A DNA stretch of 41,557 nucleotides, taken from NCBI GenBank assembly GCA_020722805.1, contig DYKA01000004.1:1-41557 (forward strand). Direction: 5' to 3'. The position numbers and the translations under genes were made by a program. The notes under the pieces were generated by a model that worked only from the letters and a program-made list of their open reading frames with translations, searched no databases and was not told the DNA's origin. This document shows, piece by piece, positions 16,765 through 41,431 of this stretch; positions within the stretch are counted from its first letter, which is position 1, and each line of letters begins with the position of its first letter. This DNA is from Vermiphilus sp. (GTDB lineage: Bacteria; Ratteibacteria; UBA8468; B48-G9; DTJG01).

Positions 16765-17736
16765 ATGAGTATTCTTGATAATTTCATCACCAGGGCAACG
16801 ACCCTGAAGAGAAGTATCGTTTTTCCAGAGTTCTGGGACAACAGAATTCTTGAGGCGGCTGCAGTTATTTGTGAAAAGTCAATTGCCAGGCCGGTATTAC
16901 CCGGAAATCCAGAAGAAATCCGTAAAGGTCTTTCACTTTCAGGGATATCATCTGACGGCATTGAAATAATTGATAGTACAAACCTTCAACTTATTGATGA
17001 ACTCACACATCTTTATCAGAAACAAAGGCCAAATGTTTCAGAAAAAGTCGCAGCCCGTCTCGTAAAAAAACCCCTGATATTTGCAGGACTTCTGGTTGCT
17101 TCAGGAAAAATTGATGCTATGGTTGCAGGTGCAGCAAGTACCACAGCAGAAGTAATTCAGGCAGCAGCCCTCACTGTTGGCTATCAATCAGGAATTAAGA
17201 ATTCTTCAAGTTTTTTTATTATGGAAATGGCCGATAGCAGAGTATTTTTTTATGCAGATTGTGCCGTTAATATATCTCCTGATAGTAATACCCTGGCAGA
17301 TGTCGCGGTATCAACAGCCAGAAGTTATAGGAAACTAATGAACAAGGAACCTCTGGTGGCTTTCCTTTCTTTTTCCTCAAAGGGTAGTGCTTCACATCCG
17401 GATGTAGATAAAGTTAAAAGAGCAGTTGAGATTGCACGAGCCATTGACCCTGATACTGTCTATGACGGAGAATTTCAAGTGGATACAGCAGTTTCAGAAT
17501 CTGTCGCACAGAAAAAGATTAAAGAACCCAGTAAGGTTGCAGGAAGAGCAAATGTATTGATTTTTCCTGATCTTGATGCTGGAAATATTGCATATAAGAT
17601 TACCCAATATCTTGCAGGAGCAAAGGCTTATGGACCTATTCTTCAGGGTTTTGCAAAACCAGTGAGTGATCTATCAAGAGGTGCGAAAGTTTCTGATATC
17701 GTTGCGGTTGCGACCATAACCAGTTTATTATCATAA
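16765..17736 (+). CDS. pta: Phosphate acetyltransferase
   Basis: Pta interconverts acetyl-CoA and acetyl phosphate. With AckA downstream it allows acetate formation with ATP synthesis. The 323-residue protein is the short (EutD-like/clostridial) form, without the N-terminal regulatory domain of the E. coli enzyme. Recognisable segments are KRSIVFPEFWDNRILEAA, DAMVAGAASTTAEVIQAA, and the C-terminal ANVLIFPDLDAGNIAYK with GPILQGFAKPVSDLSRGA. It starts three bases after nagB with only a weak AAAGAG site, so it is probably translated by coupling. Unusually, two genes (alternative glmU and an acyl carrier protein) separate it from ackA. Confidence 0.96.
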   Translation: MSILDNFITRATTLKRSIVFPEFWDNRILEAAAVICEKSIARPVLPGNPEEIRKGLSLSGISSDGIEIIDSTNLQLIDELTHLYQKQRPNVSEKVAARLVKKPLIFAGLLVASGKIDAMVAGAASTTAEVIQAAALTVGYQSGIKNSSSFFIMEMADSRVFFYADCAVNISPDSNTLADVAVSTARSYRKLMNKEPLVAFLSFSSKGSASHPDVDKVKRAVEIARAIDPDTVYDGEFQVDTAVSESVAQKKIKEPSKVAGRANVLIFPDLDAGNIAYKITQYLAGAKAYGPILQGFAKPVSDLSRGAKVSDIVAVATITSLLS

Positions 17737-19016: not shown

Positions 19017-19265
19017 ATGGAAAGGGTAGAGGTTGAAAAAAGGATAAAAAAAGTTGTGAGTAACATACTTGGTGTACCAGAAGAAAAGATAACACCGGAA
19101 AGCAGATTTGTTGAAGACCTCGGCGCTGAAAGCGTCCAGAGTCTGGAGCTGGTTGCATCTTTTGAGGCGGAGTTTGACATTGAAATGGAAGAAGATGCAG
19201 CGCTTGAAGTCAAAACAGTTGGAAAGGCAGTAGATTTTATCATAGAATACCTGAAGAAAAAGTGA
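19017..19265 (+). CDS. Acyl carrier protein, variant phosphopantetheine motif
   Basis: This 82-residue acidic protein is an acyl carrier protein of the four-helix type. The attachment site reads EDLGAESVQSLEL with Ser39 as the modified residue, so the usual Asp of DSL/DSV is replaced by Glu. The rest fits (FEAEFDIEMEEDAALEVKTVGKAVDFI). It is preceded by AAAGGAG and overlaps ackA by four bases (GTGA). No fatty-acid synthesis genes (fabD/G/F) are next to it, so it may be a secondary carrier protein. Its embedding in the acetate-forming pta-ackA run is unusual. Function beyond carrying an acyl group is not visible. Confidence 0.9.
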   Translation: MERVEVEKRIKKVVSNILGVPEEKITPESRFVEDLGAESVQSLELVASFEAEFDIEMEEDAALEVKTVGKAVDFIIEYLKKK

Positions 19266-20470
19266 ATATTCTCGTCATAAACTGCGGAAGTTCTTCAATA
19301 AAGTTCAAGATATTCAGGATGCCTGAAAATATCCTTGTTGCCAGTGGTTTGATTGAGAAAATTGGTGCCAGGGATGCAATAGTGAACTACAGGAAAGAAG
19401 AATTTTCATTTCGTAAGGTTTGCGAAGTTAAAGACCACAGGCAGGGGCTTGAAATAATAGCGGGGATACTTGTTGACCCATCCATCGGTGTTGTGAAAGT
19501 TCTTTCAGAGATTGGTGGAGTGGGACACAGGGTTGTTCATGGCGGTGAAGAGTTCACAGGAAGCATGCTTATTGATCAGCGGGTGAAAGACAAGATTAAA
19601 GAGTTTATTCCGCTTGCACCATTGCACAATCCGGCAAATCTTGAGGGAATACTTGCAGCTGAAAGATATTTCCCTGAAAGTACCCAGGTCGCCTGTTTTG
19701 ATACTGCCTTCCATACAACAATAGCAGATGTTGCATACCTTTATGCTCTCCCGTTGAATCTCTACGAAAAATATAAGATAAGAAGATACGGATTTCACGG
19801 TACAAGCCACAGATATGTTGCAAGAAGATTTGCCCAGATTACTGGCAGGCATAAGTATGATGTTAATTTGATTACCTGTCATCTGGGAAACGGCTGCAGC
19901 ATAACCGCAATAAAAAACGGAAGATCAATTGATACCAGCATGGGTTTTACCCCGCTTGAAGGACTTGTAATGGGAACAAGAAGCGGTGATATTGACCCTG
20001 GAATTATTTTTTACCTTATAGAAACCCTTGGAATGAGTCCGCCACAGGTAAACAGGATACTCAACAAAAACAGCGGACTTATTGGAATATCAGGCGTATC
20101 AAACGATTTCAGAAGTATTGTGGAGAGTGCTTCAAAAGGCAATAAGATGGCATCCCTCGCAATTGACATATTCTCCTACAGGATTAAAAAGTATATTGGT
20201 GCATATCTCGCTGTTATTGGCAGAACTGATGGAATTGTTTTTACCGCTGGCATAGGTGAAAATCAGCCGATTGTAAGAGAAAAATCTCTTGAGGGTCTTG
20301 AGGAACACGGGATTATTATTGACAGCGAAAAAAATAAATCAGTCTTTGGTGAAGAACAGGAAATCAGTACCCGGGATTCAAAAATAAGGGTTTTTGTTAT
20401 ACCGACCAACGAAGAACTGGCTATTGCTGCTGACACATATGACTTTGCAAAAAAATCAGGCAAATATTGA
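19262..20470 (+). CDS. ackA: Acetate kinase
   Basis: AckA makes ATP and acetate from acetyl phosphate and ADP. The 402-residue protein has the ASKHA phosphate-1 motif INCGSSSIKFK and VGHRVVHGGE. CFDTAFHTT carries the catalytic Asp, followed by YGFHGTSHRYV, LGNGCSI and FTAGIGEN. The start is a GTG at 19262 overlapping the carrier-protein stop. Length is normal. Its end overlaps the probable start region of the frameshifted URO-D-family gene. With Pta it supports fermentation or acetogenesis. Confidence 0.97.
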   Translation: MNILVINCGSSSIKFKIFRMPENILVASGLIEKIGARDAIVNYRKEEFSFRKVCEVKDHRQGLEIIAGILVDPSIGVVKVLSEIGGVGHRVVHGGEEFTGSMLIDQRVKDKIKEFIPLAPLHNPANLEGILAAERYFPESTQVACFDTAFHTTIADVAYLYALPLNLYEKYKIRRYGFHGTSHRYVARRFAQITGRHKYDVNLITCHLGNGCSITAIKNGRSIDTSMGFTPLEGLVMGTRSGDIDPGIIFYLIETLGMSPPQVNRILNKNSGLIGISGVSNDFRSIVESASKGNKMASLAIDIFSYRIKKYIGAYLAVIGRTDGIVFTAGIGENQPIVREKSLEGLEEHGIIIDSEKNKSVFGEEQEISTRDSKIRVFVIPTNEELAIAADTYDFAKKSGKY

Positions 20471-31041: not shown

Positions 31042-33426
31042 ATGGAACAAAAGATTGTTCAGATTATGTTTGTTTTGGGTTTGGTTCTATTGCAGGTTTC
31101 CATCAGCCAGTCAAAGGGAATTGTTGTTGCTGAAAAAGGCAGGACCAGTGCAAAAATTCTTATTTCCTCTGTCGCAGCAAATTCAGAAAAAATTGCTGCA
31201 GAAGACCTTGCAAAATATATTGAAAAAATGACTGGAGCAAAACCCGAGATAATCTCCACAGAGCAGGAAATTTCGTAAGCGCTAACAAGAAAAGATATTC
31301 CACTGTTTATTATTGGTTCTCTTGCAATAAAAGAAAATCCTTCCTTGCAGAAAAAACTTGATTCTGTAAAAAAGAAAAATCCGGTGTTGCGGGCTGATGC
31401 CATTGTTATTAAAACCGAAGGAAACAGAATTTATCTTGCTGGAAGCAACGATGATTCTCACTGCTTTGCAGTCGCAGAACTTCTTAGAAGATGGGGTTGC
31501 AGATTTTTTATGCCAACAGAATTTGGGGAATGTATTCCAGAATACTCAAAGCTTGTTGTTGATGAAATTGATTTTGCATACGGACCACCTTTTGAAATCA
31601 GAAAGTACTGGATTTCATGGATAGGAGATACAACAGGAAAAGAACAATTTATGCGATTGAATATGATGAACAATGAGGTTGTACCAAGTGGGCATGCGCT
31701 TGCGGCATATACGAAGGATATTGCTCCAGACGGTAATCCTTTCAAGGTTCCAATCTCTGAAAAATCAACTGCAGAGCATGTTGCAGCAAAGATTGAAAAC
31801 CATTATGCTGCTGGCAAAAGGATAAGTCTTGGTATGGAAGATGGGCTTTACAGTTCTGACTCACCAAAGGACAAAGAATTGATGGCTCTTCAATGGGACA
31901 AGTATTTTATGAGTCCTTCAATGTCTGATGCATTTATGGAATTTTATAATAATGTTGCTGATATATTAATGAACAAGTATCCTGAAAGCAAGGCAAAGAT
32001 AGGTTTTCTTGCTTATTCAAATATGACAATTCCACCTGTGAGAGATATTGTTGCAAAGCAGCCGCTTGTAGCATATCTTGCTCCTATTGATATAGACCCA
32101 ATACATGGCATGGATGACATTGAATCACCGCCAAGACAGGAATACAAAAATATGATGTACAAATGGGCAAAAATAATGCAGGGAAGGGTAGTGATATACG
32201 ATTATGATCAGGGTATGCTTGTATGGAGAGATATCCCAAATCCATCCATTGCCTCAGTAAGGCAGGATATCAAGCACTATAGAGACGCAGGTATTCTTGG
32301 TATTGATACAGAAAGCAGAGGTGCTTTTGCAACAACATTCATCAACCTTTATATTCGCGGAAGATTGATGTGGAATCCTGATGAGAATGTTGATAAATTA
32401 ATAGAAGAATTTTACCCTGCATTTTATGGACCGATGGCAAAACCAATGTCAGAATACTGGAATGCAATATTCAATGCATGGGCAGATACAATCGTCACAG
32501 AGCATGAGTATTTTGTTGCACCTGCAATTTATACACCAGAACTTGTTCAATTTCTTGAGAAAAAATTGATTGAGGCAGAAAAGATTGCAGAAAAAATTTC
32601 TGTAAAAAAAGATAAAAGCAATAATGAAAAACTTTATCTTGAACGAATGAAATTCACAAGAATGAGTTTTGATATCTTAAAAAATTACATGGCAATGGTA
32701 AAAGAAGCAGCAACAAACGCTGATTATGCAACAGCTGTTTCTTTCGGAGAAAAGGCACTCGCTGTGAGAGAACAACTGACTGCCATGAGTGGAATTTTCA
32801 CAACCTACAAGAGAATCGGAGAACATGGATATGCCTGGTGGCCTGGAGAGGTGCAGCAGTATAAAGAACTTGCTGGTTTGATTGACGGAACGAAAGGAAC
32901 ATTGGTTAAGAAACTTCCGCTTGAATGGGCTTTTATGAGAGACCCTGAAAATACTGGACTGCAGGAAAAATATTATGAATGCTCTGTGGATCTTTCTTAC
33001 TGGGAGAGTAATTTCAGAAACCTTACAGTCAGGAATCGAAAGGATTATCCTGAAAAAACCTGGGAAATTGTAAGAGCAGATCTTTACATTCAGGCACAGG
33101 GGATAAGAACCAGAGACAGGCAGAGTTATACCGGCTATGGCTGGTACAGGACTGAAATAGAATTGAGCAATCAGGACATCCAGGGGAATGTTCATATCAT
33201 GTTTCCGGGTCTATTCAATGAGTGCTGGCCATATGTAAACGGTCAACAGGTTGCTCACAGGGAAAATTATAAACCGTTGTGGTGGTTCAATGATTATAAA
33301 TTTGAATGGGATATTGACCTGACTGGAAAACTGAAACCAGGTAGAAATACAATTGCTTTAAGGTTTTATAATCCGCATCATTTTGGCGGAATGTTCAGAA
33401 GGCCATTCATTTACAGAGTGAAATAG
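31042..33426 (+). pseudogene. Secreted DUF4838-like protein gene interrupted by an in-frame TAA
   Basis: The gene starts with a Sec signal peptide (hydrophobic IVQIMFVLGLVLLQVSI, cleavage likely near SQS/KG). The GH67/GH20-type alpha-beta N-domain follows: IAAEDLAKYIEKMTGAKPEII, then FIIGSLAIKE and RIYLAGSNDDSHCFAVAELL. Residues about 165-480 hold the DUF4838-type region (WGCRFFMPTEFGECIPEY, then YDYDQGMLVWRDIPNP and GIDTESRG). A C-terminal galactose-binding-like beta domain ends HHFGGMFRRPFIYRVK. Codon 79 is TAA (31276-31278). The same frame continues on both sides, with no good restart until TTG 31345. AAA or CAA there would give a continuous 794-residue protein. It is followed by a URO-D-family gene seven bases later. 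Substrate is unknown; an extracellular glycan-related role is likely. Confidence 0.78.
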
Positions 33427-33433
33427 TATTTCA

Positions 33434-34501
33434 ATGCTTTTCAAACCTGACTGGCTTGAAACAAAGCAAAGGTTAACAGAATTCTGGAATGGAAAATACA
33501 TCGGAAGGTCGTGTGCTGCAATATATGCACCAGACCCTAAGCCAGATATAAAACTGCCTGAACCGCCATTGTCCGATGAAGATATATACCTGAATTCTGA
33601 TTGGTACCTGAAAAACCTTGAATACAAATTTTCTACAACCGCACATATTGGAGAAGCACTTCCTTCTGATTCCGTGATGGCAGGTTATACCATTTCTTAC
33701 GGTGCAAAAGTTATATTCAGCCCGAGGACAGTCTGGATTGAGTCAGTGTCAAATCCAGATATTGAAAATGAAAATATTTTTGAATTTTACTGGGACTCTG
33801 AGGAAATGAAAAAATTCCTCAGTTTTTACACAAAGTTTGTTCAGGCAGGTTCCGGCAAATTCCTTATTGGGCAGCCAGCAATACTTCCCGGAAATGATTT
33901 TCTTTCTATGTTCATGGGCTTTGAAAAATTCTTAATAGGATTTGTTGACAAACCGGCTGAAATGAAATTAGCAATTATCAAGCTTGCAAAAAACTGGATT
34001 CTTATTCATAAAAAACTGGCTGAAATTTATACAAAATATCAGGATGGTTATGGAATATGCTGGTTGGGACTGTGGTGTCCGTATCCTTTTGTCTCAACCC
34101 AGTCAGATATTTCCTGTATGCTTTCAAAAGAAATATTTGAGGAATTTATAGTGCCCGAAATTGAAATGGTCGGGAGAGAACTCGGGCCAGTAGTTTATCA
34201 TCTTGATGGACCGGGTGCCTTACATCATCTTGACAGATTATGTAAAATTCCTGAGATAAGGATGATACAGTGGGTTCCTGGCGTAGGCAGCAGTTATTCT
34301 GTGAATGAGTGGCTCTGGCTCTATAAAAAGATACAGGACTCAGGAAAGATTGTAATGGCATATGTGATGTCTGATGAAGTTGAATACTTTATTAAAAAAC
34401 TTGACGCAAAACTTTCTTATATTGTGTGCTGGTGTAAAACGAAGAAAGACGCAGAAAATCTTCTGATCAGTATTGAGAAATGGTCAAGTACAAAAGTGTA
34501 A
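33434..34501 (+). CDS. URO-D superfamily methyltransferase-like protein
   Basis: This 355-residue protein belongs to the URO-D superfamily but differs from the other two members in the window. It starts MLFKPDWLETKQRLTEFWNGK, a form common in gut and subsurface bacteria. Recognisable parts are GYGICWLGLWCPYPF, SDISCMLSKEIFEEFIVPEI and VVYHLDGPGALHHLD, with LDGPGA where zinc-binding members have a His-rich turn. The end is IQWVPGVGSS and IVCWCKTKKDAENLL. It follows the DUF4838-like gene by seven bases, with no clear ribosome-binding site. Pairing with a glycan locus suggests action on a methylated sugar or small molecule; this is inference. Gene-free DNA follows to 34893. Confidence 0.75.
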   Translation: MLFKPDWLETKQRLTEFWNGKYIGRSCAAIYAPDPKPDIKLPEPPLSDEDIYLNSDWYLKNLEYKFSTTAHIGEALPSDSVMAGYTISYGAKVIFSPRTVWIESVSNPDIENENIFEFYWDSEEMKKFLSFYTKFVQAGSGKFLIGQPAILPGNDFLSMFMGFEKFLIGFVDKPAEMKLAIIKLAKNWILIHKKLAEIYTKYQDGYGICWLGLWCPYPFVSTQSDISCMLSKEIFEEFIVPEIEMVGRELGPVVYHLDGPGALHHLDRLCKIPEIRMIQWVPGVGSSYSVNEWLWLYKKIQDSGKIVMAYVMSDEVEYFIKKLDAKLSYIVCWCKTKKDAENLLISIEKWSSTKV

Positions 34502-34893: not shown

Positions 34894-35730
34894 ATGGAAA
34901 ACAACACTTTGCGTGCAATCTGGTTTCAGGCAGCCAGCTGCACTGGTTGTACAATATCCATCCTTAATTCTTCTTCTTTCAAAGTGAAAAACCTGCTTCT
35001 TGATGAGATTGTTCCGGGCCATCAACTATGTCTTTTGTTTCAGCCAACCATTATGGCAGGTTCGGGTGAAAAAGTTATAGAGGTACTAAAAGAACAGAAA
35101 ACAAAAAAAGATTTTTTCCTTATTGTTGAAGGTTCTATACCAACAAAGGATAATGGTGTTTATGGCAGGGTCGGAGAAAAAACACTTCTTGAATGGTTTC
35201 AACAACTTGCATCAGCGTCGCTTGGCATAATATCTTTAGGGACATGTGCTTCTTTCGGTGGAATGTTTTCTGCGGCTCCAAATCCTGCTGGTTGTAAAAG
35301 TGTCAAGCAGGTATGTGAAGAGTCCAATATAGAAAAACCAATAATCAATATTCCTGGATGTCCGCCACATCCTGACTGGTTTATTGGTACAATTGTGCAC
35401 CTTGTTAATAAAGGTATTCCTGAAATTGATGATATTTCACGACCTCTGGGTTTTTATGGAAGTCTTATACACGAAAACTGCCCGAGAAGGCCATATTTTG
35501 ACAAGGGAAAGTTTGCATACAAGTTTGGAGAAGAAGGTTGCCTATATTTACTTGGTTGTAAGGGCCCTTTTACAAATTCTGATTGTCCACTGCGGCAGTG
35601 GAATGGTGGAACTAACTGGCTAATAAGAAATGGTGCTCCTTGTTTTGGTTGTACAGAACCAGATTTCCCTGAAAAAATGGTTCCGTTTTTTGAGAGATTG
35701 AAAGACAAACCTGAAAGGGACACACAATGA
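34894..35730 (+). CDS. [NiFe] hydrogenase small subunit, no Tat signal
   Basis: The small subunit carries electrons from the Ni-Fe site through iron-sulfur clusters. The 278-residue protein starts directly with the proximal cluster motif ASCTGCTISIL (Cys16, Cys19). LGTCASFGGMFS and NIPGCPPHPDW complete that site. The medial and distal cluster region is HENCPRRPYFD, LLGCKGPFTNSDCPLRQWNGG and APCFGCTEPDFPEKM. The sequence is closest to group 1/2 uptake enzymes. However, the long N-terminal Tat signal (RRxFxK) of periplasmic enzymes is absent, so the enzyme should be cytoplasmic. It overlaps the large-subunit gene by four bases (ATGA). The downstream MetV-MetF genes suggest that its electrons go to methylene-THF reduction. 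Confidence 0.93.
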   Translation: MENNTLRAIWFQAASCTGCTISILNSSSFKVKNLLLDEIVPGHQLCLLFQPTIMAGSGEKVIEVLKEQKTKKDFFLIVEGSIPTKDNGVYGRVGEKTLLEWFQQLASASLGIISLGTCASFGGMFSAAPNPAGCKSVKQVCEESNIEKPIINIPGCPPHPDWFIGTIVHLVNKGIPEIDDISRPLGFYGSLIHENCPRRPYFDKGKFAYKFGEEGCLYLLGCKGPFTNSDCPLRQWNGGTNWLIRNGAPCFGCTEPDFPEKMVPFFERLKDKPERDTQ

Positions 35731-37268
35731 GAAAGAAAATTTTAATTGACCCTGTTACAAGAATTGAAGGACATCTTAAAGTAGAACTGGAAATAGAAGA
35801 TGGTACAGTTGTTTCTGCAAAAAGCAGTGGAATGCTTTATAGAGGATTAGAACAAATTCTGATAGGACGAGATCCTCGTGATGCCAGCCAGATTACTCAA
35901 AGAATATGTGGAGTATGCCCTGTTGCTCACGGTATGGCCTCTTCAATGTGTCTTGATGCTGCTTTTGGAATCAGTGGAAAAATTCCCGCAAACGCATGGT
36001 TGGTGAGAAATATCATTCACGCGAGCAATCATATTCATAACAGCATTCTTCATTTCTATCATCTTGCGCTTCTTGACTATATTGATGTCGCAAAGGTTAA
36101 GAAGGGAGTGAGCCCTGAGATGGACCTTGTTGTGCAGTTCTTGCAGAGAGATGAAAAGAATCCATTTGTTCCAAGGGATGAAGAATTCAGATTTCCAGAC
36201 CAGGTTAACCAGAGGATGGTTGAAAATTATTTAAGAGCACTGGATATAAGAAGAATCGCTCAGGAAACGCTTGCCATATTTGGCGGCAAGATGCCGCATC
36301 AGTGCGGAATTATCCCGGGAGGTGTTACACAGAAGGTTGATGCAGGTAAGATTGAAAACTGTCTTGGGAAAATAAAGGAGATTTCTGAGTTTGTCAATTT
36401 TCACTACCTGCAGGATTTGATGGACCTTGTAAAGTATTATCCAGAATATTCCAGCATTGGAAAGGGTTGTGGAAATTTGCTTGCCTACGGTGCATTTCCT
36501 GTGCCTGGTTCACCCGGACTTGAAAAATTTCAGCCAGGTGGGGTTTATTATTCCTCAGGTATGAAGGTTGAAGATATTAATCCTGAAAAGATTACAGAAG
36601 CAGTGGAGTACTCCTGGTATCAGGGCAGTAAAGGACATCCATCAAACAGTTTCCCACAGCCAGACCCATTCAAGGAAGAATCATATTCGTGGATAAAAAG
36701 TCCAAGATATGACCAGCAGGTTTTTGAAGTAGGACCCCTTGCAAGGGTTTTGATTGCCTATACAAAGAATGTTCAGCCGTGGAGGGGTGCCCTGCAGGAA
36801 GTTCTTGATGCAACAGGATTGAAACTCAATGATATTATTTCAGTTGCTGGAAGACATCTATGCAGGGGAATTGAGTGTAATCTTCTGCTCAAAGAGGTTG
36901 AAAGATGGCTGTTGAGTATTGAGCCAGCAGGTGATTTCTATAAGGACTATGAAATTCCACAAGAATCAACAGGTTTGGGTCTTACAGAAGGAGCACGGGG
37001 ATCTGTGGGCCACTGGATCAGTATCAAAGATAAAAAGATTGCCCATTATCAGGTTATTTCTCCAACCACATGGAATTGTTCTCCAAGGGATAGCCAGAAT
37101 AACCCTGGTCCACTTGAACAGGCACTTGCAGGGCTAAAGATAAAGGATGAAGACCATCCTGTTGAAGCAGTTCGGATTATACGTTCATTTGATCCGTGTC
37201 TGGCCTGTGCTGTTCAGTTGAAAAGTTCAGAGAAGATTCGCGCAAAGAAATTTTACCTATGGATGTGA
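35727..37268 (+). CDS. [NiFe] hydrogenase large subunit, with Gln at the usual His of the C-terminal motif
   Basis: The large subunit holds the Ni-Fe active site that splits or makes H2. The 513-residue protein has the L1 motif RICGVCPVAHG (Cys61, Cys64) and the L2 motif DPCLACAVQ (Cys491, Cys494). In nearly all cleaved [NiFe] enzymes the residue after that AV is His (or Arg), where the maturation protease cuts. Here it is Gln497 (codon CAG at 37215), one base from His. A 16-residue tail follows, as expected for a precursor, and a protease gene is next. N-terminal DPVTRIEGHLKVE and GLEQILIGRDPRDA are typical of group 1/2 uptake enzymes. No cytochrome b subunit is present, again pointing to a cytoplasmic complex. 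Confidence 0.95.
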   Translation: MRKKILIDPVTRIEGHLKVELEIEDGTVVSAKSSGMLYRGLEQILIGRDPRDASQITQRICGVCPVAHGMASSMCLDAAFGISGKIPANAWLVRNIIHASNHIHNSILHFYHLALLDYIDVAKVKKGVSPEMDLVVQFLQRDEKNPFVPRDEEFRFPDQVNQRMVENYLRALDIRRIAQETLAIFGGKMPHQCGIIPGGVTQKVDAGKIENCLGKIKEISEFVNFHYLQDLMDLVKYYPEYSSIGKGCGNLLAYGAFPVPGSPGLEKFQPGGVYYSSGMKVEDINPEKITEAVEYSWYQGSKGHPSNSFPQPDPFKEESYSWIKSPRYDQQVFEVGPLARVLIAYTKNVQPWRGALQEVLDATGLKLNDIISVAGRHLCRGIECNLLLKEVERWLLSIEPAGDFYKDYEIPQESTGLGLTEGARGSVGHWISIKDKKIAHYQVISPTTWNCSPRDSQNNPGPLEQALAGLKIKDEDHPVEAVRIIRSFDPCLACAVQLKSSEKIRAKKFYLWM

Positions 37269-37735
37269 AAATACTTGTTGCCGGGTTTGGTAATATTTTA
37301 ATGAAGGATGATGGTATGGGTGTCTATCTATGCCGTTATTTGAAAAAGAAAAAAATTGAAGGGGTTGAAATTCAGGAGTTCGGGGTAGAGGACTGGCGGC
37401 TTTCATGCGTGGCTTTTGATTTCAAACATATTGTAATTGTTGATGCAGTGGACATTGGATATATGCCAGGAAAATGTGCAGTGTGGGAAGATGTAGATTT
37501 TACCGATCTATGTGGATTTTCATTGCATCATGGATATTTTATTTCAGAAATGCAGTTTATCCGTGCCTTAAAAAAACTTTCAGAGAAAATTTTCTTTTTT
37601 GGGATTCAACCAGAAAAAATTGAGTGGGGAATCGGACTTACAGAGAGATTGAATGCCCGGTTTTATTCTATTGCAGAAAGATTGAAGATTTTTATTGAAT
37701 CCTTGGCAAAAGGAGAGATATATGCTCTACACTGA
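37259..37735 (+). CDS. Hydrogenase maturation protease (HyaD/HycI family)
   Basis: This 158-residue endopeptidase removes the C-terminal tail of the large subunit after nickel insertion. It has the signature GFGNILMKDDGMGVYL (nickel-sensing Asp in the DDGMG part), a second acidic site in VDAVDIGYMPG, and a His in FSLHHGYF. I chose the ATG at 37259, which overlaps the large-subunit stop by ten bases; an in-frame start at 37196 lies deep inside that gene. It is immediately followed by the MetV-like gene with a 14-base overlap. The enzyme must recognise the unusual Gln site if the large subunit is correct as read. Confidence 0.92.
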   Translation: MDVKILVAGFGNILMKDDGMGVYLCRYLKKKKIEGVEIQEFGVEDWRLSCVAFDFKHIVIVDAVDIGYMPGKCAVWEDVDFTDLCGFSLHHGYFISEMQFIRALKKLSEKIFFFGIQPEKIEWGIGLTERLNARFYSIAERLKIFIESLAKGEIYALH

Positions 37736-38387
37736 AACGAAAAGTTTTGAGGAGATAGAAAAACTTATTAAACAAGAAGAATCAATTTTCCTGCTCGGAT
37801 GCGGTGGATGTGCAGAGGTGTGTAAAACTGCTGATGAGGAGACAATTGCTGAGATTGAGGCAAAAATCAAGGAAACAGGAAAAAGCATTTCAGGAAAACT
37901 CATTGTGGATTTTATGTGCAGTAAACATCTTTTGATCAAGCGGCTTGCAAGATATCAGGAACTACTTGATGGTTGTTCTGCAATTCTTGTGTTTTCCTGT
38001 GGAATTGGTGTTCAGTGTGCAGGAGCTGTTTCAGACAGGGCCGTGTATCCTGCAACAAACACAATATCCCTTGGTGGATTTCAAGGATTGTGGCCGGGTG
38101 AAGAAAGATGTGCCCAGTGTGGCACATGCTATCTGGGAATAACCGGAGGGATATGTCCTATTACATTTTGTGCAAAGGAACTTCTCAATGGCGCCTGCGG
38201 AGGAGCGAAAGATGGAAAATGTGAGATAAAAACAGAAAGGGAATGCGGCTGGGTTTTAATTTATGAAAGATTGAAAAAGATTGGAAAACTTGAGTTGTTG
38301 AAAGAAATACAGCAGCCAAGAGATTTCAGGAAGATTGAACCAGATGCAAAGTTGAGAAAAACCATTCATTTTGATATTGATAGATAA
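37722..38387 (+). CDS. metV: MetV-like iron-sulfur subunit of methylenetetrahydrofolate reductase
   Basis: The 221-residue protein matches the MTHFR C-terminal family (PF12225), called MetV in acetogens, which partners MetF. It has an N-terminal cysteine motif LLGCGGCAEVC (Cys27, Cys30, Cys34). Further cysteines lie in VFSCGIGVQCAG, and a C-terminal cluster-binding region reads CAQCGTCYLGITGGICPITFC and CGGAKDGKCEI. Such proteins carry one or more iron-sulfur clusters and probably pass electrons to the MetF flavin. The ATG at 37722 has AAGGAGAG upstream and overlaps the protease gene. In described acetogens MetVF sits with RnfC2 or HdrA-type subunits; here the neighbour is a hydrogenase. Confidence 0.9.
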   Translation: MLYTETKSFEEIEKLIKQEESIFLLGCGGCAEVCKTADEETIAEIEAKIKETGKSISGKLIVDFMCSKHLLIKRLARYQELLDGCSAILVFSCGIGVQCAGAVSDRAVYPATNTISLGGFQGLWPGEERCAQCGTCYLGITGGICPITFCAKELLNGACGGAKDGKCEIKTERECGWVLIYERLKKIGKLELLKEIQQPRDFRKIEPDAKLRKTIHFDIDR

Positions 38388-38401
38388 AAAGGAGGAAAAA
38401 A

Positions 38402-39283
38402 ATGGAGAAGAAAAGCTTAAGCCAGAAACTTCAGGAGGGAAAATTTGTTATAACCTCTGAAATAGGTCCGCCAAAGGGAACAAATATTGAACCTCACCTT
38501 AAAGAAGCAGAACACATTAAAGAGAAAGTGGATGCATTTAATGTTACAGACCTGCAGAGTTCAGTAATGCGGCTTGGTTCTCTTGCAACATGCAAGCTTC
38601 TGGTTGATATGGGACTTGAACCTGTTTTTCAATTGACCTGCAGGGATAGAAATAGGCTGGCTCTTCAATCAGATTTATTAAGTGCATATGTTCTTGGGGT
38701 GAAAAATGTTCTGTGTCTCACCGGAGACCATCCTTTTCTTGGAGACCATCCTGAGGCAAAACCTGTTTTTGACCTTGATTCTGTTTCGCTATTGAAGGCT
38801 GCAACTGATTTAATGAACGGAAAAGATATGATGGGTAATGACCTTGATGGTAGACCGGAGTTTTTCCTTGGTGCAGTTGTAAGTCCTGGGTATGAACCAC
38901 TTGAAATGCAGTTGATAAAAATGGAGAAAAAGATAGAAGCAGGGGCAAAGTTCTTTCAGACTCAGGCAGTTTATGATTTGAAAAGCTTTGAAAAATTTAT
39001 GGGTATAGTGAAAAAATATAATGTTCCTATTCTTGGTGGGATTGTGCTGCTGAAGACAGCAGGTATGGCACGATATATGAATGAAAATGTGGCAGGTGTT
39101 AATGTTCCCGAACGTTATATATCAATGATGGCCGCTGCCAAAAAAGAAGAAAGATCAAAGGTGAGTATTCAGATTGCCGCAGAACTTATTAAAGGAATGA
39201 AGAATCTGTGTCAAGGAATACATATTATGCCTCTTGGCTGGGAAAAATATGTCCCACAGGTTCTTGAGGCAAGCGGATTTTAG
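38402..39283 (+). CDS. metF: Methylenetetrahydrofolate reductase, MetF type
   Basis: MetF reduces methylene-THF to methyl-THF with FAD. The 293-residue protein opens SEIGPPKGTNIEPHL and has the FAD and folate barrel elements FNVTDLQSSVMRLGS, EPVFQLTCRDRNRLALQSDLL (no more than the QLTCRDRN core is needed), CLTGDHPF and FFQTQAVYDL. The last, with GGIVLLKTAGMARYM, is typical of the acetogenic and sulfate-reducer branch. AAAAGGAGG precedes the ATG, 14 bases after metV. It ends the hydrogenase-MTHFR operon; moaA follows at once. Methyl-THF would feed CODH/ACS or methionine synthase, neither of which is in the window. Confidence 0.94.
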   Translation: MEKKSLSQKLQEGKFVITSEIGPPKGTNIEPHLKEAEHIKEKVDAFNVTDLQSSVMRLGSLATCKLLVDMGLEPVFQLTCRDRNRLALQSDLLSAYVLGVKNVLCLTGDHPFLGDHPEAKPVFDLDSVSLLKAATDLMNGKDMMGNDLDGRPEFFLGAVVSPGYEPLEMQLIKMEKKIEAGAKFFQTQAVYDLKSFEKFMGIVKKYNVPILGGIVLLKTAGMARYMNENVAGVNVPERYISMMAAAKKEERSKVSIQIAAELIKGMKNLCQGIHIMPLGWEKYVPQVLEASGF

Positions 39284-39284
39284 T

Positions 39285-40266
39285 ATGATTAGATGGTTCT
39301 GGTAGAATAATAAATACACTCAGGATATCAATCACAAACAAATGCAATCTGAAATGTTTTTACTGTGGTAATGGTAGTTCATTCCAGGGTCTGGAGTTTG
39401 AGCCAATTTCCTGCGAAGAAATACTGAGTTTTATAAAGATTTTTGTGAGGTTGGGTATAAATAAAATCAAGATTACCGGTGGCGAGCCACTTACCAGACC
39501 CGATACTGTCCCGATTATAGAAAAAATAGCCAGAATTCCTTTTCTTGATGATATATCCCTGACAACAAACGGAGTGCTGCTTAAGTTTTTGGCAGAAGAC
39601 CTCAGAAGGGCAGGATTGAAAAGGATTAATATCAGTCTTGATACTCTGGACAGAAGAAAATATAAGAAGATAACAGGCGCAGATAGGTTTTACGACGTTA
39701 TTGAAGGAATAGAGAAAGCCCTGCGTCTGGATTTTTCAGCAGTCAAGATCAATGTTGTTGTTATGCGGGGAATAAACGATGGAGAGATAAGAAACTTTCT
39801 TGAATGGGCAGAAGAAAAGAAACTTATTTTAAGGTTTATTGAATATATGCCTGTTCGCAATACTCTGGAAAACTGGCGGGTGCATTTTGTGTCAGGAAAT
39901 GAAATCCTGTCAGAAGCAGAAAAGATTGGAGAACTGAAGAAGGAAGAAAAGGTTAATTTTCCTGCGAATGGTCCGGCAGAATATTTCAGATTGAAGAACA
40001 ACAAAATTCCTTTTGGAATAATCAATGCCGTGAGCAGTCCTTTTTGCTTCAGATGCAACAGAATCAGAATTGATTCTAACGGGAGTTTGTTTTTATGTTT
40101 ATACGATGAACGTGCATTTAATCTGAGGAATGTTATTCAGTCAGAAATTGACAATGAAATTCTGTCCCTCATAAGAAGAATCATTCTTGATAAACGGTCA
40201 TTTAATCCCAATCTGTCAGGTGTGTGCGGGACATACCTTCCGTTTATGTGTCATATCGGCGGTTAG
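39285..40266 (+). pseudogene. moaA: GTP 3',8-cyclase MoaA with an apparent one-base insertion after the start
   Basis: MoaA is a radical SAM enzyme of molybdenum cofactor synthesis. The main frame contains TLRISITNKCNLKCFYCG (SAM cluster CxxxCxxC), KITGGEPLTRP, the second cluster SPFCFRCNRIRIDSNG, and a terminal IGG like other MoaA proteins. This frame is open from 39289 but holds no ATG, GTG or TTG before the cluster motif. The ATG at 39285 is one base out of step: ATG ATT, an extra A, then GAT GGT TCT GGT AGA. Removing one base gives MIDGSGRIINTLRISIT, which matches the usual MoaA N-terminus. Either an ATA start is used (39307 or 39310), or a base was inserted or miscalled. About 326 residues when repaired. 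Downstream fdhD and moaC support a Moco cluster. Confidence 0.8.
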
Positions 40267-40268
40267 CG

Positions 40269-41006
40269 ATGTATGAAAAGAGGAAGATTGTGGTGGTTGA
40301 AAATGGCAGAAGGAAAAGTAAGTATGACGATGTTGCAGCTGAATCTGGACTGAGAATATTTGTGAATGGCAAAGAATTTATTACCCTTTTATGCAGCCCT
40401 GAAAACCTTGATTATCTTGCAAGAGGCATAATCTTTACATCTGGTTTGACAGGCGAAAAAAACAGAGTCAGGTCATTTTCAATCAAAGGAAATTATTGTT
40501 ATGTAGAAACAGAGAAAACAATAGCTCCGTACGGAAAAATTGTTTCATCAGGATGTGGCAGGATCAGTCATATCGCAGGCGTCAGAAAAAGCAAACCCGA
40601 TAATTTCAGAGTTTCTGCTGAAAGAATTTTATTTTTGATGAAGGAATTTCAAAAACTTGCCGTGGTGTATAAGCTTACAGGAGGTGTGCACTGCGTCGGC
40701 ATATCAGACGGGGAAAAAATAATATTCTTTCACGAAGACATTGGCAGACACAATGCTTTTGATAAGGTAATCGGTGAATGTCTTGCAAAGGGAGTATCTA
40801 CTTCAAAGAAGATTATTCTTTCTTCTGGAAGAATCAGTTCAGAGATTGTTTTGAAAAGCGCAGCAGCAAAAATTCCTGTTGTTGTATCAAAAGCAGCTCC
40901 CACAACCTATGCAATAGCGCTTGCAAAACTTTATAGCATAACAATAGCCGGTTTTGTAAGGGGCAGCAGGATGAACATCTATACACACGCAGGGAGAATA
41001 ATTTGA
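40269..41006 (+). CDS. fdhD: FdhD-like formate dehydrogenase accessory sulfurtransferase
   Basis: FdhD passes sulfur to the molybdenum cofactor of formate dehydrogenases, which need it for activity. The 245-residue protein has LTGGVHCVGI, FFHEDIGRHNAFDKVIG and SSGRISSEIVLKSA, all family hallmarks. The usual CxxC loop is reduced to one cysteine, SSGCGRI, a form I associate with some anaerobes. I chose the ATG at 40269, two bases after the moaA stop; an in-frame start at 40224 lies inside moaA. It overlaps moaC by four bases (TTGA). Its presence implies a Mo- or W-dependent formate dehydrogenase elsewhere in the genome. Confidence 0.92.
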   Translation: MYEKRKIVVVENGRRKSKYDDVAAESGLRIFVNGKEFITLLCSPENLDYLARGIIFTSGLTGEKNRVRSFSIKGNYCYVETEKTIAPYGKIVSSGCGRISHIAGVRKSKPDNFRVSAERILFLMKEFQKLAVVYKLTGGVHCVGISDGEKIIFFHEDIGRHNAFDKVIGECLAKGVSTSKKIILSSGRISSEIVLKSAAAKIPVVVSKAAPTTYAIALAKLYSITIAGFVRGSRMNIYTHAGRII

Positions 41007-41431
41007 TAGACATATCAAGCAAAAAACCAACGAAAAGAAAGGCAAAAGCCAATGGCAAGATTTTCCTACCTTCTCATATCATAAAGAAGATAAAGGAAAA
41101 CAAGGTTCCTAAAGGAGATGTTTTGAAATCTGCAGAAATTGCAGGACTATTTGCTTTGAAAAATACTCCTTTTGTAATTCCGCACTGTCATCCCGTAAAA
41201 ATCACAAAGGGAGCCTTGAGAATTTCTTACGGTGATAATTTTATTCGGGTAGAAAGCGAAGTGGAAGGTATTGATAGGACAGGATTTGAAATTGAGGCAT
41301 TACATAGTGTGATGGTCGGGCTTTTAACAATATACGATATGTGTAAAGTATTTGGATATAAAATGGAAATAGGAGAAATAAAACTGATTCAGAAAACCGG
41401 TGGTAAAACTAACTTCAGGGTTTCCGGATGA
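41003..41431 (+). CDS. moaC: Cyclic pyranopterin monophosphate synthase MoaC
   Basis: MoaC finishes the first stage of molybdenum cofactor synthesis after MoaA. The 142-residue protein starts at a TTG overlapping the fdhD stop. It contains KGDVLKSAEIAGLFALKNT and PHCHPVKITKG (the MoaC LCHP-type element), VEGIDRTGFEIEALHSV and MVGLLTIYDMCK, all diagnostic. The N-terminal substrate segment normally has MVDVSxKxxTxRxAxA; here it is MIDISSKKPTKRKAKA. Slightly short but complete. The next gene (MOSC) overlaps its stop by four bases (ATGA). Confidence 0.95.
   Translation: MIDISSKKPTKRKAKANGKIFLPSHIIKKIKENKVPKGDVLKSAEIAGLFALKNTPFVIPHCHPVKITKGALRISYGDNFIRVESEVEGIDRTGFEIEALHSVMVGLLTIYDMCKVFGYKMEIGEIKLIQKTGGKTNFRVSG

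Follow-up and report, generated by a model that had tools for sequence, protein, structure and literature searches.

The electron donor of MetVF-type methylene-THF reductases is a long-standing open question, because it decides whether and how acetogens gain energy (PMC8760232). In the third type of methylene-THF reductase, known from Acetobacterium woodii, a MetV and MetF core is encoded directly downstream of RnfC2, an NADH-oxidising RnfC-like protein (PMC8760232, PMC9430772). In the fourth type, known from Moorella and Sporomusa ovata, the MetVF core is accompanied by HdrCBA and MvhD; H2 reduces methylene-THF in S. ovata membranes, but the hydrogenase there is periplasmic, Tat-exported and cytochrome b-linked and is encoded elsewhere (PMC9430772). 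In addition, one sentence in a 2024 study of Candidatus Bipolaricaulia from Great Salt Lake reports HysAB next to MetVF in two MAG groups and suggests that the hydrogenase gives electrons for methylene-THF reduction (PMC11287216), although we found no statement on Tat state, distribution, MetV type or RnfC2 replacement in the passages of that paper that we consulted. Here we examined a locus in which a Tat-less [NiFe] hydrogenase is encoded together with MetV and MetF, and compared it with corresponding loci in related and distant genomes. The arrangement is thus not wholly new, but its occurrence as a cassette across phyla, its strict link to the absence of a Tat leader and its exchange with RnfC2 were not found in the papers searched.

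Gene organization of the hydrogenase-MetVF locus

The analysed stretch of DNA (hereafter the window) is 41,557 nucleotides long and represents positions 1 to 41,557 of contig DYKA01000004.1 (Vermiphilus sp., assembly GCA_020722805.1). The following genes were identified in the region of interest:

31345..33426 (+), DUF4838 protein, upstream flank
33434..34501 (+), uncharacterised ORF without Pfam match, upstream flank
34894..35730 (+), HydS, hydrogenase small subunit without Tat leader, 278 aa
35727..37268 (+), HydL, Ni-dependent hydrogenase large subunit, 513 aa
37259..37735 (+), hydrogenase maturation protease (HycI/HupD superfamily)
37722..38387 (+), MetV (DUF5981 domain), iron-sulfur/zinc subunit of methylene-THF reductase, of the hydrogenase-linked MetV type
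38402..39283 (+), MetF, flavin subunit of methylene-THF reductase, 293 aa
39289..40266 (+), MoaA (molybdopterin synthesis), downstream neighbour, with the radical-SAM motif open in frame from 39289 but no canonical start codon
40224..41006 (+), FdhD, formate dehydrogenase accessory sulfurtransferase, downstream neighbour
41003..41431 (+), MoaC, downstream neighbour

The five genes from hydS to metF are consecutive, with overlaps of 4 bases (HydS/HydL), 10 bases (HydL/protease, the latter starting with ATG) and 14 bases (protease/MetV, the latter starting with ATG), and a 14-base gap before MetF, which confirms the gene order and spacing described in an earlier note on this sequence. Domain searches assigned NiFe_hyd_SSU_C and Oxidored_q6 to HydS, NiFeSe_Hases (PF00374, E 2.3e-134) to HydL, HycI to the protease, DUF5981 (PF12225) to MetV and MTHFR (PF02219) to MetF. 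HydL scored 597 bits against a cut-off of 600 for NF033181, and its best match in the PDB is 1cc1. Both CxxC Ni-Fe motifs are present (RICGVC and DPCLAC), HydL contains Cys, not selenocysteine, and Gln replaces the usual His in DPCLACAVQ. In HydS, the ligands of the proximal (C16, C19, C118, C156) and distal (H193, C196, C216, C222) clusters are conserved, as are the medial C231, C250 and C253, whereas the fourth medial position is Leu in the window and in G007 (a relative in the same order) but Cys in the relatives designated f2. The locus resembles group 1a [NiFe]/[NiFeSe] hydrogenases (HysAB) in subunit make-up, Fe-S and Ni-Fe ligands and a large-subunit length near 510 aa, but differs from them by the absence of a Tat leader, Cys in place of Sec, the lack of a cytochrome c3 or membrane partner and the operon with metVF. 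Stop codons precede the HydS ATG in frame with no ATG, GTG or TTG between, and the first CxxC lies at residue 16, against about 48 or more in Tat-bearing relatives. No membrane-anchor or NAD(P)H-binding gene lies in the block, and neither the block nor its neighbours contain hdrCBA or mvhD.

Distribution of the gene block and its relationship with the Tat leader

A first nine-row profile search by phylum reached only 35 genomes, because the phylum of the window holds few; the survey was then carried out on the class of a Dehalococcoidia genome and on a cross-domain sample. The block is conserved in four relatives belonging to two families of the same order (G007, G014, G017 and G018), in 26 of 393 sampled Dehalococcoidia and in 4-5 other genomes of the cross-domain sample (including G497, G604, G615 and G740); the individual loci include those of L067-L069 and of 23 Dehalococcoidia genomes, plus two whose split genes were joined through a second contig. 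The same order recurs in other families and classes at about 45-65% protein identity, indicating that the adjacency is not a matter of chance.

Among 138 scorable group-1-like hydrogenases, absence of a Tat leader and a following MetV always coincided (36 Tat-less with MetV and 102 Tat-bearing without, with no exceptions). Apparent exceptions were examined individually: L077 and L090 seemed to lack MetV, but their HydL is cut by a contig end and the second contig carries MetV-MetF; L193 was scored as Tat-bearing only because of an RR upstream of its start codon; and L135 carries RRTFFK, which had been missed by the pattern. The leaders of L008 and L009 are cut by the edge of the stretch retrieved, and these two were left out.

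Exchange of the hydrogenase module with RnfC2

Comparison of genomic contexts revealed that close relatives carry RnfC2-MetV-MetF at the same chromosomal site. The window and G007 have the order DUF4838-orf-[HydS-HydL-protease-MetV]-MetF, while G002 and G005 have DUF4838-orf-[RnfC2-MetV]-MetF. The DUF4838 protein of the window is 82% identical to that of G002, and the adjacent ORF is 74% identical to its counterparts in both G002 and G007. A second, separate swap was observed between fchA-folD-[hydrogenase block] in G014, G017 and G018 and fchA-folD-[RnfC2-MetV]-MetF-fhs in G010 and G019. RnfC2 is characterised by a MetV-like domain, RnfC_N and Complex1_51K; the window genome and G007 have no RnfC_N domain at all, whereas one is present in each of G002-G005 and G008, and only one MetV-like match was found in the window genome. 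Remnants of RnfC2 were also sought in the 392-base gap before hydS, but none were found.

MetF stays 84-88% identical within the genus, while MetV changes type with the partner. Phylogenetic analyses showed that the MetV tree needs only 2 changes for three partner types, which is the minimum, but the MetF tree needs 14. Distance correlations were 0.84 for HydS-MetV and 0.78 for HydL-MetV, but only 0.24 for HydL-MetF. A single clade of hydrogenase-type MetV is neither shown nor rejected (AU p 0.32), and one origin is therefore not claimed.

A probable H2-dependent methylene-THF reductase

Considering these results, the best explanation is that HydS-HydL and the MetV that comes with it form a cytoplasmic, exchangeable electron-input module for MetF, so that the five-gene block probably makes an H2-dependent methylene-THF reductase. 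In the proposed chain, H2 is split at the Ni-Fe site of HydL, electrons run through the three Fe-S clusters of HydS, leave at the distal cluster into the Fe-S clusters of MetV, reach the flavin of MetF and reduce methylene-THF to methyl-THF. The module would take the place of RnfC2 plus its own MetV, through which NADH feeds the enzyme in close relatives. The earlier note had proposed the same chain from the sequence alone, and this interpretation is supported: the adjacency is conserved in relatives and other classes, and no separate electron-acceptor or donor gene accompanies the block. The strongest evidence, namely the site swap and the tracking of the partner by MetV type, could not be seen from that one sequence.

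However, the physical contact between HydS and MetV, the activity, the direction and the absence of bifurcation are inferred; there is no biochemical, transcript or complex evidence. The direction (reduction) is inferred from thermodynamics, delta G0' of the reaction from H2 to methylene-THF being -41 kJ/mol (PMC9430772). It should be noted that MetVF of S. ovata did not co-purify with its Hdr partners although encoded beside them (PMC9430772), so adjacency need not mean a stable complex. AlphaFold models of MetV (mean pLDDT 68, Fe-S half under 60) and HydS (57) were too weak to place clusters, a Foldseek search with MetV gave nothing below E 0.001, and no MetV-like chain is in the PDB by sequence. 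Most of the genomes are MAGs, and CODH/ACS was not found in the window's own MAG, so the pathway around the enzyme is seen only in relatives. With these reservations, we consider it more likely than not that the locus represents a fifth class of methylene-THF reductase, that is, a stable cytoplasmic HydSL-MetVF complex reducing methylene-THF directly with H2, which was acquired as a HydS-HydL-MetV cassette that replaced the RnfC2-MetV unit on the same MetF and is present in several phyla of uncultured bacteria.

Alternative explanations

An alternative, which we regard as unlikely, is that HydSL is a soluble, ferredoxin-coupled hydrogenase that reduces ferredoxin with H2 (or the reverse), while MetVF takes electrons from ferredoxin as in C. 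ljungdahlii, the genes travelling together because their products work in sequence without direct electron transfer. Purified MetVF enzymes do use reduced ferredoxin in vitro (PMC8760232, PMC9430772). Nevertheless, a loose link through a common carrier does not explain why the MetV type changes with the partner while MetF does not, nor why the module takes exactly the site of RnfC2, which carries a MetV-like domain of its own. Moreover, no ferredoxin gene lies in the block, and H2 (-414 mV) is a poor donor for ferredoxin at low H2.

It is even less likely that the enzyme works mainly in reverse, oxidising methyl-THF and releasing H2, for example during methyl-group or acetate oxidation in syntrophy. 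MetVF is reversible with viologen (PMC9430772) and several relatives of HydL come from syntrophs, although those are Tat-bearing. However, the potential of methylene-THF/methyl-THF (-200 mV) makes H2 release endergonic by about 41 kJ/mol under standard conditions and still uphill at low H2, and the neighbours are CO2-fixing genes (fchA, folD, CODH/ACS, fdh, fdhD and moaA).

A similarly doubtful possibility is that the complex is electron-bifurcating, or membrane-coupled through a subunit encoded elsewhere, so that H2 reduces methylene-THF together with a second acceptor, as proposed for the Hdr-type reductase. The -41 kJ/mol of the direct reaction would otherwise be lost, acetogens live close to the energy limit (PMC8760232), and HydB/HydC-like genes lie a few genes upstream in L068; yet no HdrA, MvhD, RnfC2 or other flavoprotein is conserved in the block across lineages, and RnfC_N is absent from the window genome. 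Finally, although co-transcription alone does not prove a joint function, mere hitch-hiking of two unrelated metabolic genes is close to refuted by the conservation across distant groups with a perfect link to the Tat state, the two separate site swaps and the co-inheritance of HydSL with MetV but not with MetF.

Implications for methylene-THF reduction

These results suggest that some uncultured bacteria use H2 directly for a step where their close relatives use NADH. A wider role is possible: the window genome also encodes group-4 type membrane hydrogenase clusters, so H2 made by them could be taken up by this enzyme inside the cell. With regard to the electron donor of MetVF reductases, nature has run the experiment: on one MetF, in one genus, the donor module is either an NADH-oxidising RnfC2 or a hydrogenase, each with its own MetV, which gives matched protein sets for comparison. 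This points to MetV as the adaptor between donor and MetF and predicts donor specificity from sequence (Tat-less HydL or RnfC2 upstream, and MetV type).

Gene organization of the hydrogenase-reductase locus

The window is a whole contig (G000:C171) of a 1.79 Mb MAG that was estimated to be 92% complete, and a near relative of this organism (genome G007) is recorded as Candidatus Omnitrophota (JAMWBU010000011.1). The earlier note had described the small subunit (HydS), large subunit (HydL), maturation protease, MetV and MetF as lying on one strand at 34894-39283, with overlaps of 4, 10 and 14 bases and a 14-base gap before metF, and we found these coordinates, overlaps and gap to be exactly so; the family assignments also hold. 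The features of the window considered here are as follows.

16765-17736, phosphate acetyltransferase-like gene (read by eye)
19262-20470, acetate kinase-like gene (read by eye)
34894-35730, HydS, hydrogenase small subunit
37196-37230, C-terminal motif of the large subunit HydL
39289-40266, MoaA

Among solved structures, HydL is closest to [NiFeSe] group 1 enzymes (1cc1) but has Cys at the Ni ligand. Its C-terminal motif ends in Gln (DPCLA/SCxVQ) in all six members of this phylum (the window and loci L002-L006), where every other group-1 relative seen has His, and the maturation protease would have to cut after Gln. HydS lacks any in-frame start upstream, so a Tat leader is not possible with canonical starts. 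All proximal and distal cluster ligands are present, so the chain from the Ni-Fe site to the surface looks intact. The fourth ligand position of the medial cluster (residue 243) is Leu in the window and G007, Cys in the relatives from family f2 of the same order and in most Dehalococcoidia, and Pro in classic [NiFe] enzymes, which suggests a 3Fe-4S medial cluster in this genus. Downstream of the block lie moaA, fdhD and moaC, and in G007 the same contig continues to formate dehydrogenase, NuoE/F-like and CODH/ACS genes. MoaA reads through its radical-SAM motif (LDGSGRIINTLRISITNKCNLKCFYC) in one open frame, but this frame contains no ATG/GTG/TTG before 39445, whereas G007 has an ordinary start; the start may have been lost, may be unusual, or may reflect an assembly error.

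Distribution of the block in other genomes

Of the 35 genomes of the phylum that were examined, six carry this HydL. Five of them have HydS-HydL-protease-MetV-MetF, and in the sixth (G021) the contig ends in the protease gene. In family f2 the block directly follows fchA and folD, the two preceding steps of the folate branch. By scanning named genomes, the same block was detected in Dehalococcoidia (loci L067 and L068) and in a MAG labelled Nitrospira (L069), and the L068 block sits between CODH/ACS and formate dehydrogenase genes. However, L069 nests among Dehalococcoidia in the HydL and MetV trees and its contig may be mis-binned, and thus Nitrospirota was not counted as a host phylum. In 393 genomes of the class to which L067 belongs, 41 have a HydL at E <= 1e-150, of which 26 are Tat-less with MetV and 15 lack MetV. 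In a sample of 386 genomes spread over the domain, four (G497, G604, G615 and G740) have the block and one (G747) has it split over two contigs. Other arrangements of the reductase genes were also observed, including a natural MetV-MetF fusion of 549 aa in genome G035 (L151, 5245-6894), which would be useful for structural work on the MetV-MetF contact, and two convergent MetF genes next to the hydrogenase-linked MetV in genome G066 (L187, 3892-5878). In genome G495 (L310, 3351-7900), MetVF is located directly downstream of NuoF/NuoE-like (HydB, HydC) and formate dehydrogenase-like genes, perhaps yet another electron-input arrangement for MetVF.

Absence of the Tat leader coincides with adjacency to MetV

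Over all distinct loci with a readable HydS leader and enough downstream sequence (two leaders were re-read by eye and two were left out), 36 are Tat-less and followed by MetV, 102 are Tat-bearing and not followed by MetV, and none is mixed. These are not independent observations. On the HydL tree, the label needs 2 changes against 28 for shuffled labels. The Tat-bearing Dehalococcoidia hydrogenases without metVF (L214-L228) lie within the 54-row group that otherwise holds only metVF-linked ones, so loss of Tat and gain of metVF, or the reverse, go together at least twice on paper, while the deep forks are weakly supported. It is possible that these Tat-bearing enzymes derive from the cytoplasmic form by gain of a Tat leader.

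Replacement of RnfC2 at the same chromosomal site

Two genomes of the same genus (G002 and G005) have DUF4838 - orf - RnfC2 - MetV - MetF, in which RnfC2 is a 665-aa fusion of a MetV-like domain, RnfC_N and Complex1_51K. The flanks are orthologous, with identities between the window and G002 of 82% for DUF4838, 74% for the orf and 88% for MetF. In contrast, MetV is only 45% identical between them, although it is 83% identical between the window and G007. The same exchange is seen in family f2, where rhaB - fchA - folD - [HydSL-prot-MetV] - MetF in G014, G017 and G018 corresponds to rhaB - fchA - folD - [RnfC2-MetV] - MetF - fhs in G010 and G019. RnfC_N is absent from the window genome and G007, and occurs once, as RnfC2, in each of G002-G005 and G008. 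In f2, the hydrogenase-bearing G014, G017 and G018 keep an ordinary RnfC of 439-455 aa but no RnfC2.

Co-inheritance of HydS, HydL and MetV

On a tree of 91 MetV sequences, the three partner types (hydrogenase, RnfC2 and other) need 2 changes, the least possible, after three rows were relabelled because their HydL lies on another contig. On the MetF tree they need 14 changes, and hydrogenase- and RnfC2-linked MetF of one genus are sisters. Pairwise-distance correlations agree with these results (HydS-MetV 0.84, HydL-MetV 0.78 and HydL-MetF 0.24, n = 19). Thus, the unit of inheritance is HydS-HydL-MetV, laid onto whatever MetF is present. In Dehalococcoidia even the MetF family differs between members while HydSL-MetV stays.

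Relation to known methylene-THF reductases and inferred electron flow

Four reductase types have been described, namely MetF, MetVF, MetVF-RnfC2 and HdrCBA-MvhD-MetVF (PMC9430772). Membranes of S. ovata reduce methylene-THF with H2, through periplasmic Tat-exported hydrogenases and cytochrome b. For Ca. Bipolaricaulia of Great Salt Lake, one sentence states that HysAB is adjacent to MetVF and may give electrons for this reaction (PMC11287216). The pairing therefore has a brief precedent, which we found in no other paper in a search that did not cover most subscription journals and preprints, whereas the cassette behaviour, the coincidence of Tat absence with MetV and the replacement of RnfC2 appear unreported.

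From family knowledge, electrons may be inferred to run from H2 at the Ni-Fe site through the HydS clusters, the MetV clusters and the MetF flavin to methylene-THF, although all of the evidence here rests on comparative genomics, mostly of MAGs. No structure of MetV was found by sequence search, and the AlphaFold models were poor. The reaction with H2 is exergonic by 41 kJ/mol under standard conditions (PMC9430772), so no bifurcation is needed to make it run, though energy would be lost unless recovered elsewhere. The genome also encodes two further [NiFe] hydrogenase-like clusters with many membrane subunits (group-4/Mrp-Mbh look; G000:C65, L189, and G000:C128, L190), the first beside hypF, hypD and hypE. 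Speculatively, H2 formed there with ion pumping could be the substrate of the cytoplasmic enzyme, giving net electron flow from ferredoxin to methylene-THF. The phosphate acetyltransferase-like and acetate kinase-like genes of the window fit acetate formation from acetyl-CoA. Formyl-THF synthetase is present in the genome, and AcsB was not found in this MAG but is in G007 on the same contig and in G001, G014 and G018, so that acetogenesis by the window organism, while not shown, is likely.
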